Shown: positions 20,767 through 63,910 of the stretch, in pieces
Layout of the letters: the number at the start of each line of letters is the position of its first letter
How positions within the stretch are numbered: the stretch's first letter is position 1
Source: Glaciihabitans sp.
GTDB lineage: Bacteria; Actinomycetota; Actinomycetes; Actinomycetales; Microbacteriaceae
Direction of reading: 5' to 3'
Assembly (NCBI GenBank): GCA_025464095.1
Contig: JAODMF010000001.1
Coordinates: forward strand, 59,782-123,781
DNA length: 64,000 bases
Translations under genes and position numbers: made by a program
The notes under the pieces: model-generated
Seen by the model: only the letters and a program-made list of their open reading frames with translations
What the model was told of the DNA's origin: nothing
Databases searched by the model: none

Positions 20767-20951
20767 GGGTCGCGCGCGGGCTGGTTGCGGCGGGGGTTGT
20801 TGGCTCGGCTGTGGCTGTCGCTCGTGCCCGTGGCCGCGGGGGTTGATGCCCGTGGGTGTGGCCCATGCCCGTGGCGGCGGGGGTTGTTGCCCCTGATGGC
20901 GGGAGTTACGTGCGGGTGGCGGGGGTTCGGGCCCAATTGGCGGGAGTTCTT

Positions 20952-20987
20952 GCGAGGTGGCGGGAGCCCAGGCTCCCGCCACCTCGC
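20952..20987. repeat. Perfect palindrome, 17-bp arms, 2-nt spacer
   Basis: GCGAGGTGGCGGGAGCC-CA-GGCTCCCGCCACCTCGC. Confidence 0.92.
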
Positions 20988-21010
20988 TGTAAGCCCCGCC
21001 GCGTCGATCC

Positions 21011-21336
21011 TGAGTGCGAATTACTCCCGCCGGCTGCCAGTTTCTCCCGCCACCGGCGGCACGCGCCCACCCGCCGCGCGATCGGACGGTACCGGGTCGG
21101 CCTGGTCGTGCGGCATGAGTGCGAATTACTCCCGCCGGCTGCCAGTTTCTCCCGCCACGGGCGGTACGGGGTCACCCGCCGCGCGATCGGCCCGCACGCG
21201 CCCACCCGCGGCCACCCGCAGCGCGCGGCCTGAGTGCGAATTACTCCCGCCGGCTGCGAGTTTCTCCCGCCGCGGGCGGCACGGGGTCGCCCGCCGCGCG
21301 ATCCACGGGCGGCACGCGCCCACCCGCCGCGCGATC
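21011..21336. repeat. Three tandem 105-115 bp direct repeat units
   Basis: TGAGTGCGAATTACTCCCGCCGGCTGCSAGTTTCTCCCGCC begins at 21011, 21116, 21231; CRCCCGCCGCGCGATC at 21068, 21173, 21288, 21321. Confidence 0.9.
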
Positions 21337-22809
21337 CGGCGGCACGAACGAGCCCCCCGCGACCAGCCCGTCCCCGACCTCAATGTCAGCGAACGCGAGC
21401 TTCGGAACCAGGAACAGCAGCACCGCAGCGACGAGGGCACCGACACCGCAAATCGTGAACACCGCCAGGTAGCCGCCGAGGCTGGATGCCGTTGCTCCCG
21501 CCGAGTTCAGCACCGCCGCACCCAGCACGATGGCGAAAACGGCGGAGGCGAACGAGCCGCCGATCGTCTTCGTCGTGTTGGTGAGGGCGGTCGCGATTCC
21601 GGTCTGGCCGCGCGGGGCGGCCGCAGCTGCCGCAGCTGGAAGTGCCCCAACGAGCGCACCGGACCCCAGCCCTGCGATCCCCATGTTGATGAACACCTCG
21701 ATGACGGCGGTGTGGAACGGCAGGAACAGCAGGTAGCCGCCCGCAACGAAGAAGGCCGCCACGATCAGGGCGAACCGGGGCGAGCGCCACCGCGATAGCC
21801 GGGGGAACAGCAGGGCGCCGATGATCATCGACACGAGGTACAGGCCGATGATATTGGAGATGTCGCTTGCCTCCATCCCGAGCCCTGCGCCGGTCTTCGT
21901 GTCGGCTCCAGCGAATGTTGCGAGCGGCGTCTGCGCGCCCAGGAGGCTGATGCCGACCAGCGCGGCGGTGAGCTGCACCGGCCACATGTTCGGCTGCCTC
22001 AGCACCCGCAGGTCGATCGCCGGGTCTTTCCTGCGGAGCTGGATGCGCGACCACGGGATGAACACCGCGATTCCCGCAAGCATCAGCAGGTACACCCACC
22101 ACGCGGTCGGTCCGTTGATGCGCAGGAAGGTCAGGCCGCCGGTGATGAGCAGCAGGCCGAACGCCAGCCCGACGAAACCGCCAACGTCGAGCGAGCGCCC
22201 CGGCACGGGCTTGGACTCGGGAACCCCGAACAGGATCGCGAAGAATACGAGACTAACGGCGATCGCCGGAACGATGAGCGTGAGCGAAACATCGTGTCCG
22301 GTGGCGGCGAAGATGCGGCTGCCGCCGAGCGCGCCGATTATCGCTCCGGCCTCGAGGGCGACCACGAGGTATCCGGCCGCCCGACGGGTCTGTGACGCGC
22401 CGGTGCGGGTCTGGCGTCCCCGGTCGAAGATCAGCGCGACCTCGAGCGGCAACCAGACGACGTAGAACCCCTGCAGCGCGAACGCGGCCAGGTAGGAGGC
22501 GAAGTTGCCGGAGAACGCAACGCCCCAGGTCGCGGCAGCAGTGAGCACGGTCGACACGAGCAGGATCCGCTTGTGGCCGTACAGGTCGCCGAGCTTGGCG
22601 AGAATCGGAACAACGATGGATGACAGCAGCAGTTGCGCGGCCTCGAACCAGTTGTAGTCGGCATCTTTGATCCCGAGGTGGTCGACGAGGTCGGGAATCA
22701 GCGGCACGTAGTAGCCCTGCAGGATGCCGCTGGTCAGCTCCACGAGAAACAGGAACCCCACCAGGCCGAACGTGATGGCGCCAGCGTTGCCGCGCGCGAG
22801 CTTCTCCAT
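21241..22809 (-). CDS. MFS transporter; C-terminal tail encoded by the repeat array
   Basis: 12-14 TM MFS protein; tail ...DRAAGGRVPPVDRAAGDPVPPAAGETRSRRE lies in repeat units. Confidence 0.85.
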   Translation of the reverse strand: MEKLARGNAGAITFGLVGFLFLVELTSGILQGYYVPLIPDLVDHLGIKDADYNWFEAAQLLLSSIVVPILAKLGDLYGHKRILLVSTVLTAAATWGVAFSGNFASYLAAFALQGFYVVWLPLEVALIFDRGRQTRTGASQTRRAAGYLVVALEAGAIIGALGGSRIFAATGHDVSLTLIVPAIAVSLVFFAILFGVPESKPVPGRSLDVGGFVGLAFGLLLITGGLTFLRINGPTAWWVYLLMLAGIAVFIPWSRIQLRRKDPAIDLRVLRQPNMWPVQLTAALVGISLLGAQTPLATFAGADTKTGAGLGMEASDISNIIGLYLVSMIIGALLFPRLSRWRSPRFALIVAAFFVAGGYLLFLPFHTAVIEVFINMGIAGLGSGALVGALPAAAAAAAPRGQTGIATALTNTTKTIGGSFASAVFAIVLGAAVLNSAGATASSLGGYLAVFTICGVGALVAAVLLFLVPKLAFADIEVGDGLVAGGSFVPPDRAAGGRVPPVDRAAGDPVPPAAGETRSRRE

Positions 22810-59287: not shown

Positions 59288-61402
59288 GTGACTGATGTCA
59301 ATGTCCGTGCGTCCGGCACGGGCGAACGCGCCAACCTGAGCGCCCTCCGCCTCTCCGAGCTTCAGGCTCTGGCGAGCGACCTTGGCCTTGCCGGCGCATC
59401 CAAACTTCGCAAAGGAGCACTCGTGGACGCAATCAACGAGATCCAGGACAACACCCCCACCGACACCGTGGATTCGCGGGTAGAACCCGAATCGCAGGTC
59501 GAGACCTCGTCGAACGATGCCGCGCCCGAGGCAGCCGCCGCGCCCGCTGCGGCTCCGGCTCGCAAGCGTGCACCGCGCCGTGCGACCACGGCGGACGCAC
59601 TCGCCGCCGCCGCCGCTGCAGCCAGGGAGACCGCCGACGTTCCCGTCGACGCCGCTCCGGTTGCCGCAAGCGAGCACGTCGCCGAGCAGGCTGACCAGGC
59701 GGATGCCGCAGCCAGCTTCGACCTGCCCAGTGACAGCCGAACGGATGTTGCCGAGAACGCTGATGTCGCCGGAAACGCTGATGTCGCCCAGAGCGCGGAT
59801 GTCGCTGACAACGGCGATGGCGCCGAGCAGGCGGACAGCGCTGACGGCGAGCAGTCCGGTGGCTCGCGCAACTCCCGCAGCCGCAATCGCAACCGCGGTG
59901 AGCGTGCGCAGGGCGATGGCGCAGCACGCCAGAACAACCAGCAGAATGGCAACCGCGACGGCAACCGCGACGGCAACCGCGACGGTGCCAGCCAGGGCGG
60001 CCGTGCCGCGAACGGCAACCAGAACCGTGACGGTGCACGAGAACAGAACCGCGAGGGCCGCGAACAGAATCGTGACTCCGCACGCGACCAGAACCGCGAC
60101 GGCAACCGCGACTCGAACCGCGAGCAGCAGCAGCTGCAGGGCGACGATGCCGACCGTAACGGGCGCAACCGCTACCGTGACCGCAAGCGCGGCCGCGGAC
60201 CGGTCGGCGACGACTTCGAGCCGGAGATCAGCGAGGATGACGTGCTCATCCCTGTCGCCGGCATCCTCGATGTCCTCGACAACTACGCCTTCGTTCGCAC
60301 GAGCGGCTACCTCCCCGGAGCGAACGACGTCTACGTGTCGCTCGGCCAGGTCAAGAAGTACAACCTCCGCAAGGGTGACGCCGTCGTCGGCGCCATCCGC
60401 CAGCCGCGCGAGGGCGACAACAGCCAGGGCCGCCAGAAGTACAACGCGATCGTGCGCATCGACTCGATCAACGGTCTGCCGGTCGAGGAGGCCGCGAACC
60501 GCGTCGAGTTCGGCAAGCTGACCCCGCTGTACCCGACCGAGCGCCTGCGCCTCGAGAGCGAGTCGCAGAAGCTGTCGACCCGCATCATCGACCTCGTGTC
60601 CCCGATCGGCAAGGGCCAGCGTGGCCTCATCGTCTCGCCGCCCAAGGCGGGCAAGACGCTCGTGCTGCAGGCCATTGCGAACGCCATCGCCAAGAACAAC
60701 CCAGAGGTTCACCTCATGGTCGTTCTCGTCGACGAGCGTCCGGAAGAAGTTACCGACATGCAGCGCACGGTGAAGGGCGAGGTCATCGCCTCCACCTTCG
60801 ACCGTCCCGCCGAAGACCACACCACGGTCGCCGAACTCGCCATCGAGCGCGCGAAGCGCCTCGTCGAGCTCGGTCACGACGTGGTCGTTCTGCTCGATTC
60901 GATCACCCGCCTCGGCCGTGCCTACAACCTGGCTGCCCCGGCATCCGGTCGCATCCTCTCCGGTGGTGTCGACTCGTCGGCCCTGTACCCGCCGAAGCGC
61001 TTCTTCGGCGCCGCGCGCAACATCGAGGAGGGTGGCTCGCTCACCATTCTCGCGACGGCGCTCGTTGAGACCGGTTCCAAGATGGACGAGGTCATCTTCG
61101 AGGAGTTCAAGGGCACCGGCAACATGGAGCTCCGTCTGTCGCGCGCCCTCGCCGACAAGCGCATCTTCCCGGCCGTGGATGTCAACGCATCCGGAACCCG
61201 TCGTGAAGAAATGCTGCTCGGCCCGGATGAGGTCAAAGTCACCTGGAAGCTGCGTCGGGCCCTCGCGGGTCTTGATCAGCAGCAGGCGCTCGAGATCGTT
61301 CTCGGCAAGCTGAAGGAGACCTCCTCGAACGTCGAGTTCCTCATGCAGATCCAGAAGTCACTGCCTGCGCCGACCAACGGCAACGGCCACAAAGAGGACT
61401 GA
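59288..61402 (+). CDS. rho: Transcription termination factor Rho with low-complexity N-terminal insertion
   Basis: [49 protein letters not shown]-rich insertion. Confidence 0.97.
59947..59982 (+). repeat. Three perfect 12-bp tandem repeats inside rho
   Basis: GGCAACCGCGAC x3, encoding GNRD. Confidence 0.9.
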
Positions 61403-62481
61403 TGTTTGAGTCAGTGCAGTCGCTGCTCACCGAGCACGACGAGCTGCAGAACCAGCTTGCCGACCCGGAACTGCACTCGGACCCCGCCCGATCGAAGAAG
61501 GTCAACCGGCGCTACGCCGAACTGAGCCGAATCGTCGCCGCGTACCACGAGTGGCGCCAGCTGACGGATGATCTCGCCGCCGCGACCGAGATGGCCGCGG
61601 AGGACGAGTCGTTCGCCGAGGAGGTGCCGGCGCTGACCGAGAGCCTCGCCACCGCCGAGGAGACGCTGCGGCGCCTGCTCATTCCGCGCGACCCGCTGGA
61701 TGCCCGTGACGTGATCATGGAAATCAAGATGGGCGAGGGAGGGGCCGAGTCGGCCCTGTTCGCGGGTGACCTGTTGCGCATGTACCTGCACTACGCGGAA
61801 TCCAAGAAGTGGAAAACCGAGATCATCGAGCAGACCTCGAGCGACCTCGGCGGAATCAAGGATGTCCAACTGGCGATCAAGGGGAACTCCAGCGACCCCG
61901 CCGAGGGTGTCTGGGCTCACCTGAAGTACGAGGGCGGCGTCCATCGCGTTCAGCGCGTGCCGGCCACCGAGTCGCAGGGCCGCATCCACACGTCCGCTGC
62001 CGGCGTGCTCGTCTTTCCCGAGGTGGACGAGCCCGAAGAGGTCGAGATCAGCCAGAACGATCTCAAGATCGACGTCTACCGCTCGAGCGGTCCCGGGGGC
62101 CAGTCGGTCAACACGACCGACTCCGCGGTTCGCATCACCCACATTCCCACCGGAATCGTCGTGGCGATGCAGAACGAGAAGAGCCAGCTGCAGAACCGCG
62201 AGGCCGGTATGCGCGTTCTGCGCGCACGCATCCTCGCGCGTTACCAGGAGGAGGCGGACGCTGAGGCGTCGGCCTATCGCAAGAGCCAGATTCGCACCAT
62301 GGACCGGTCGGAGCGCATCCGCACCTACAACTTCCCGGAGAACCGCATCGCGGATCACCGCACCGGGTACAAGGCCTACAACCTCGATGCCGTCATGAAT
62401 GGCGCGCTCGAGCCGGTCATCCGGTCCGACATCGAGGCCGACGAGGAGTCGCGCCTTGCCGAGATCGGTTCCGACGACTAG
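61402..62481 (+). CDS. prfA: Peptide chain release factor 1
   Basis: [24 protein letters not shown] (GGQ motif); ATGA-like overlap with rho. Confidence 0.97.
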
Positions 62482-62505: not shown

Positions 62506-63384
62506 ATGCACACGATGACCCATCCCGACCAGGCGCTCCCGACCGTCTACGCGCGCGCCCGCGAACGGCTCGCCGGCGCGGGCATCCCTACGCCCGGTGT
62601 CGACGCCGAGCTGTTGATCGGCTACGTGCTGGGACTCAGCCGCGGGGGAGTGCAGGCGAGGATCATCACCGAAGCCGTGCTGCCGCTCGAGGACGTCCTC
62701 ATGATCGCGGAGGTTGTCGAGCGTCGAGCCGCCCGCGAGCCGCTGCAGCACATCACCGGTCGTGCTCCGTTCCGCTCCCTCGAGCTCGCCGTTGGCCCCG
62801 GCGTTTTCGTCCCGCGGCCGGAGACCGAACAGGTCGCGCAGTACGCCATCGACTCCCTCCGCGCGGTCGCATCGCCCGAACCGATCGGCGTCGACCTCGG
62901 AACCGGCAGTGGCGCGATTGCGCTGGCGATGGCGACCGAGGTTCCGCACGCGCGGGTGATTGGTGTCGAAAACTCGCCGGTCGCCTTCGTCTGGGCGAAG
63001 CAGAACCTGCGAGAAACGGGGGCCGACAACCTGCGCCTCGTCTTCATCGACCTCGCCGAGGCGCTGCCCGAGCTCGACGGCATCGTCGACGTCGTGATCT
63101 CGAACCCGCCGTACATTCCACAGGATGCAGTGCCCCGCGACCCGGAGGTGCGTCTCTACGATCCTGCGCACGCGCTCTATGGGGGCGAAGACGGACTGGA
63201 TGTGGTGCGTCACGTCTCCACAACGGCCAGGCGCCTGCTCCGTCCCGGTGGCACGCTCATCCTCGAGCACGGCGAGCTGCAGGCCGCGGCCATCGGTGCG
63301 CTGCTGGCTGCCGATGGCTGGACGGCCGTTGGCCACCACCGCGACCTGTTGGGCCGCGACCGAGCGACGACGGCGATTCGCTAG
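62506..63384 (+). CDS. prmC: Release factor glutamine methyltransferase
   Basis: FVPRPETEQVAQYAID; VDLGTGSGAIALAMATE; VISNPPYIP. Confidence 0.96.
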   Translation: MHTMTHPDQALPTVYARARERLAGAGIPTPGVDAELLIGYVLGLSRGGVQARIITEAVLPLEDVLMIAEVVERRAAREPLQHITGRAPFRSLELAVGPGVFVPRPETEQVAQYAIDSLRAVASPEPIGVDLGTGSGAIALAMATEVPHARVIGVENSPVAFVWAKQNLRETGADNLRLVFIDLAEALPELDGIVDVVISNPPYIPQDAVPRDPEVRLYDPAHALYGGEDGLDVVRHVSTTARRLLRPGGTLILEHGELQAAAIGALLAADGWTAVGHHRDLLGRDRATTAIR

Positions 63385-63385
63385 C

Positions 63386-63600
63386 GGGTCGGTAGGGCGG
63401 GTCGCGTCGGGCTCGGTAGCGTAGTCGGTCGGGTCGGGTCGGGTCGGTAGTGGGTCGGGTCGGGTCGGTAGCGGGTCGGGCCGGGCGGCTGGTCGGGCGC
63501 AGGTCGTGTCGGACCCGGTAGTTAGTCGGCTCGGGTCGGGCGCAGGTCGTGTCGGACCCGGTAGTGGCTCGGGCTCGGGCTCGGGCTCGCGCTCGGATGG
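63386..63600. repeat. Low-complexity GGGTC/GGTCG-rich tandem repeat downstream of prmC
   Basis: GGGTCGGGTCGGGTCGG runs; 32-bp direct repeat at 63491-63522 and 63534-63565. Confidence 0.88.
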
Positions 63601-63657: not shown

Positions 63658-63910
63658 GGCGGGAGATGAGTGCTGCTGGCGGGAGTTGCGTGCTCGCGGC
63701 GGGAGTTACTTCCTCGTGGCGGGAGTTGCGTGCTCGTGGTGGGTCCTGGTGGCGGGAGTTTTGCCTTAACGGCGGGGGCTAGTGACAGCACTCTGAGCTG
63801 CCGGCGGGGGATAACTGCTCGTGGCGGGAGCCTAGGCCCCCGCCACCTCGCAATAACTCCCGCCGATCGGCCGATAACTCCCGCCACCAGCACGTTTCTC
63901 CCGCCACCGC
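63658..63910. repeat. Repeat element, copy B: mirrored GGCGGGAG arrays around a palindromic core
   Basis: GGCGGGAG at 63658, 63678, 63698, 63718 (20-bp period); core GTGGCGGGAGCCTAGGCCCCCGCCAC 63821-63846; CTCCCGCC at 63857, 63878, 63898. Confidence 0.87.

Follow-up and report, generated by a model that had tools for sequence, protein, structure and literature searches.

Copy B and its counterpart in the window

The window, i.e., the whole stretch of 64,000 nucleotides that was analysed, ends where its contig ends, and a mirrored array of short repeat units, here named copy B, stops 95 bp from this border. Upstream of it lie prfA (61402-62481) and a prmC-like gene, and the interval between the latter and copy B (63385-63596) is filled by GC-rich tandem repeats, namely CGGGT-type units of 5 and 21 bp, a 43-bp unit present about twice, and five copies of GGCTCG. 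A related array, copy A, has a short-chain dehydrogenase gene on one side and an MFS transporter gene on the other. The features are as follows.

20876-21051, no strand assigned: copy A, whole element, with the tail on the left and the dyad at 20969/20970
20939-21000, no strand assigned: copy A core hairpin, 62 bp, nearly perfect (-53.6 kcal/mol, z -8.7)
21117-21156, no strand assigned: two units, a partial duplication of copy A's right end
21230-21271, no strand assigned: another such partial duplication, again of two units; it overlaps the 3' end predicted for the MFS gene (21241-22809, minus strand)
62506-63384, plus strand: prmC-like gene (Pfam)
63658-63905, no strand assigned: copy B, whole element, with the central dyad at 63833/63834 and units on either side
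63658-63778, plus strand: extra left units of copy B, at 63658, 63678, 63698, 63718, 63751, and 63771
63803-63864, no strand assigned: copy B core hairpin, 62 bp, unit-N12-unit-CCTAGG-unit'-N12-unit' (from the alignment of 35 core hairpins and pair counts)
63823-63844, no strand assigned: copy B central inverted pair GGCGGGAG-CCTAGG-CCCCCGCC, one base off the family core
63845-63905, minus strand: standard tail of copy B, units at 63857, 63878, and 63898 (steps of 20, 21, and 20)

The original prediction placed four left-hand units with a 20-bp period at 63658, 63678, 63698, and 63718, and all of them are found there as GGCGGGAG, which also occurs at 63751 and 63823. The right-side copies are likewise present, with CTCCCGCC at 63857, 63878, and 63898 and a variant at 63837, and the core reads as quoted. 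Specifically, GGCGGGGG variants stand at 63771, 63803, and, on the minus strand, 63837, and past the core the extra left units depart from the standard register, with steps of 32, 20, 33, 20, 20, and 20. Copy B folds into one long hairpin (z -7.5 as RNA, -8.5 as DNA), and its 62-bp core hairpin has a fold z of -4.3.

The two-unit right end of copy A is present as three repeats within 21010-21271, the third of which overlaps the 3' end of the MFS gene. Across the window, the octamer occurs 27 times against 7.9 expected, a count that 0 of 100 shuffles reached, and 19 of the 27 fall within the two clusters, including the extra unit pairs to the right of copy A. The two copies lie in opposite orientation, and copy B aligns to copy A only once reverse-complemented. 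In this alignment, 31 of 49 spacer positions agree; among 5000 random stretches, the average was 12.4 and the highest value 24. The similarity beyond the octamer thus clearly exceeds chance, and the refutation envisaged for the family, a merely random identity there, fails. Both copies contain ACTCCCGCC-N8-GTTTCTCCCGCCACCG, as had been claimed; the spacer is shared in length and not in sequence, which is GGCTGCCA in copy A and ACCAGCAC in copy B.

Architecture, pairing, and gene context of the family

The genome assembly (2.50 Mb, 29 contigs, 83% complete) was searched with the core pattern GGCGGGAG-N6-CTCCCGCC, allowing up to 3 mismatches and using the reversed pattern as the control. This genome-wide search, suggested by the original prediction, returned 45 near-perfect cores at 35 loci and 0 matches to the control, and core matches of 45 and 92 compare overall with 0 for the reversed pattern. 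The proposal of a repeat family with a common core, a period of about 20 bp, and a flip of polarity is therefore upheld, and its restriction to two loci is replaced by at least 35. Contig ends (C3 start, C25 end, C28 end) lie less than 200 bp from element cores. As the contig ends at copy B and in C3 and C25 adjoin elements, it is probable that these repeats interrupt the draft assembly, and the locus count is a minimum. No two dispersed copies are recent duplicates, the best pair having about 77-85% identity. Whole elements are also duplicated in tandem or nearby at L034, L040, L042, L044, L054, L059, and L060, with a spacing of about 130-270 bp, and the dispersed copies are much more diverged than these same-locus duplicates.

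The common architecture is a 62-bp hairpin, unit-N12-unit-N6-unit'-N12-unit', usually followed by a one-sided tail of units. The central unit starts are 14 bp apart, and the outward steps are 20, 21, 20, and then mostly 22 bp; in arms chained with permitted steps of 16-26, the first step is 20 in 62/62, the second is 21 in 28/29, and the third is 20 in 27/27. At the fixed position of the third or fourth unit, 31 of 35 elements have units on a single arm and 4 have them on both arms, and most elements are thus polar. On the short side, homology ends about 35 bp from the dyad; on the long side, it fades out. As to terminal repeats and target duplications, a sharp edge is seen on the short side only, and the borders are blurred in cross-genome alignments.

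Between copies, the octamers are 91-98% identical and the spacers 43-48% (31% for random sequence), where the outer octamers were not part of the element search and the means for the third and fourth units refer to arms selected for having them; the second unit, which was unselected, is 91% identical. A spacer of constant length with little constant sequence indicates that the spacing itself is constrained. Moreover, the inner (first) spacer covaries between the arms, with 75 both-side changes against 53.8 +/- 5.3 in shuffled data (0/500) and 25-28 when the partner is slid, and no such covariation between arms was found for the outer spacers. The covariation points to a role for a folded strand, be it RNA, single-stranded DNA, or a cruciform; the agreement of the inner arms can also come from quasi-palindrome correction during replication.

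All 35 loci are intergenic and no core lies within a gene as predicted here from codon usage, without a standard annotator; in the related genome G241, 1 of 43 cores falls within a predicted gene. Convergent gene pairs are enriched at the elements (14/33 against 32/229 other neighbouring pairs, p = 0.0003), as they are in the sampled relatives (12 of 27, p = 0.001); in G241, the convergent excess is not significant. The direction of the tail does not correspond to that of the genes, and its orientation is mixed in co-directional pairs. The distance from stop codon to element is scattered (about 8-270 bp), and a T tract typical of intrinsic terminators is absent at the core hairpin. Lastly, the 25 commonest Pfam families in a set of 65 flanking proteins include neither a distinctive gene family shared by the loci nor an adjacent transposase.

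Distribution among relatives and search for a mobiliser

In a survey of 400 genomes from the same bacterial family, a few genera are rich in two-unit arrays (G022, G074, g79, and g97). Genomes G074, G203, G149, and G292 share the core geometry of the Glaciihabitans genome and have their own central six bases, which are TCGTAG or CTATAG in G074, TCGTTT in G203 and G149, and CAATTG in G292, compared with the CCTAGG-like centre of the family described above. In genus g36, GAGGGCGGGT units follow each other with a 20-bp step in 84/84 arms, the distance between the central GGCGGG/CCCGCC words equals that of the Glaciihabitans elements, which identifies GGCGGG as the common word, and the inner spacer covaries (z = 5.0); the g36 arrays are probably the same family. 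An earlier reading of the g36 GAGGGCGG arrays as a mirror-image curiosity was dropped because alignment on GGCGGG shows the same core geometry. A related 74-bp hairpin with GAGGGCGGGT units was seen in genus g36 (L136-L175, G241, with at least 43 cores in G241) and in G190 and G132. In G190, identical spacers recur in many arms at different loci, which suggests recent spread. In genus g79 (L078-L086), GGCTCCAGCCGCGCC forms one end of the elements, or both ends where it is present as inverted copies. The repeats occur in several genera that belong to a single family of actinobacteria, most likely the Microbacteriaceae.

Presence differs sharply between related species, in line with the presence/absence polymorphism that the original prediction proposed to look for among closely related strains. 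Within g73, G074 has 36 cores and G144 has 0, and within g79, G203 has 35 and G328 has 0. At L082:4044, about 195 bp separate two convergent genes in G203, and the same genes lie almost end to end in G384 and G358. At L082:3210 and L082:7252-7599, G384 is without elements and has little or no gap, and at the former site the element core of G358 is inverted relative to that of G203. At another site, G203 and G358 carry an element beside an ordinary terminator-like hairpin, and G328 is without the element. Conversely, for three loci of the Glaciihabitans genome (after ffh, between isomerase-like and aldolase/dehydrogenase genes, and after guaB), the corresponding position in G203 or G074 is also occupied by an element, in each case of the type of that species. 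These matching-site elements suggest hot spots or the overwriting of old insertions; shared ancestry could explain them as well.

The Y1 (RAYT-type) transposase PF01797 is absent from 21 genomes, ten clear carriers among them, and was detected in the control genomes. The carriers gave no match in a search for an IS91-type Y2 transposase in which the control was likewise silent, and no mobilising enzyme was identified in the carrier genomes tested. GTAG or CGTC tags have no fixed position and occur in at most 3 of about 35 elements. Searches of Rfam returned nothing above the gathering score, only chance matches to miRNA precursors far below threshold, and no match to the element or the full core was found in phage, plasmid, and viral collections. 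Six loose two-unit GGCGGGAG matches with 20-bp spacing were seen in viral contigs L122-L127, one of which carries three of them consecutively at 40-bp intervals. A scan of genome contigs for the exact core of the Glaciihabitans type gave one isolated hairpin with no array, in a MAG named Candidatus Sulfopaludibacter (L019), which was judged a chance match.

Known repeat classes and competing explanations

No earlier description of this repeat was found in the literature. The lack of a match to REP, BIME, ERIC, or CRISPR, stated in the original prediction, holds, and no Rfam family matches either. The suggestion that the repeat is outside the known kinds is not supported, as the fixed spacer length with compensatory changes, the extragenic position with its convergent bias, the tandem duplication of whole elements, and the polymorphic insertions are published hallmarks of REPIN/REP-type elements (PMC3116915, PMC3733652). 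A CRISPR array was rejected on account of the 8-bp units, the 12-14-bp spacers, and the flip of polarity at the dyad, and a DNA-uptake sequence because octamers outside the arrays are at background level. REPINs are REP doublets that form hairpins in Pseudomonas fluorescens SBW25 and E. coli; they have conserved inverted ends and a spacer conserved in length and in pairing through compensatory changes, and they are extragenic and cluster in tandem (PMC3116915). The family described here shares the inverted conserved ends, the fixed-length pairing spacer with compensatory changes, the extragenic position, and the tandem whole elements, but it has at least four units instead of two, a one-sided tail in which the units lie two turns apart, no GTAG tag, and no RAYT/Y1 transposase found in the carriers. 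A convergent/unidirectional bias has been reported for REPs in general (PMC3733652). Among them, the CGTC-tagged REPs are also intergenic palindromes with this bias and with no dedicated transposase known, whereas the present elements are longer, have a different unit, and lack a CGTC tag at a fixed place; no actinobacterial case appears in the main text of that study (PMC3733652). The elements resemble MITEs in being short, non-coding, palindromic, and polymorphic in insertion, but no terminal repeats or target duplication could be delimited for them, and no parent insertion sequence was identified. BIMEs are mosaic REP arrays of enterobacteria in which the unit orientation alternates; they are likewise intergenic arrays of palindromic units, whereas the units here face one central dyad and contain no REP sequence. 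Given that neither tag nor a Y1 transposase was found, the family is REPIN-like in its working and is not a member of the REP/RAYT system.

Copy B is probably a member of an interspersed, non-coding palindromic family of the REPIN/MITE class that is copied or moved in trans. The element would travel as a folded single strand or a cruciform, moved by an enzyme that would read the GGCGGG-containing units; neighbouring units may be bound on one helix face, as they are two turns apart, and the host would tolerate elements between genes only, above all behind convergent gene ends. As far as tested, the enzyme is not of the Y1 (RAYT/IS200) type. The narrower proposal that these REPIN-like palindromes are spread by a non-HUH-Y1 enzyme recognising two-turn-phased GGCGGG units around a hairpin is tentative; the central sequence proper to each species suggests co-evolution with such an enzyme. 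The octamers and their spacing remain intact despite the divergence of the copies, which may reflect a host function, and binding of the phased units by the host is a serious rival. In its full form, a nucleoid protein or a topoisomerase would sit on the octamers along one helical face around the central dyad and would organise or insulate the chromosome between convergent genes, similarly to the proposed BIME-gyrase sites. The retention of octamers and two-turn spacing while spacers diverge, the lack of a direction bias relative to genes, and the occupation of the same intergenic sites in different genera are in line with it, but presence differs strongly within a genus, sites are empty in close relatives, the inner-spacer covariation is unexpected for duplex binding, and no binding protein is known, which leaves this explanation rather unlikely.

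A bidirectional terminator or a stabiliser of mRNA 3' ends, acting as an RNA hairpin, would account for the very stable hairpins, the covariation, and the convergent excess. It is nonetheless improbable: the core has no U-tract, the stop-codon distances are scattered, at one site in G203 the element is accompanied by an ordinary terminator-like hairpin, the phased tail has no role in such a model, and the convergent excess is not significant in G241. That a GC-rich genome produced the arrays by chance or as a low-complexity artefact is a negligible prospect and was rejected; the octamer is GC-rich, and about 8 per window are expected as background, but the shuffles and the reversed control described above, together with the same geometry at dozens of loci, stand against it.

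REP-type repeats are usually explained by RAYT transposases, and here a multi-genus family has the hallmarks of REPs with no such enzyme found, even in carriers that are 99% complete. The family therefore offers a clean system for seeking another mobilising mechanism, or a host protein that maintains the arrays, and the related species with and without copies (G203/G384, G203/G328, and G074/G144) make the question testable.
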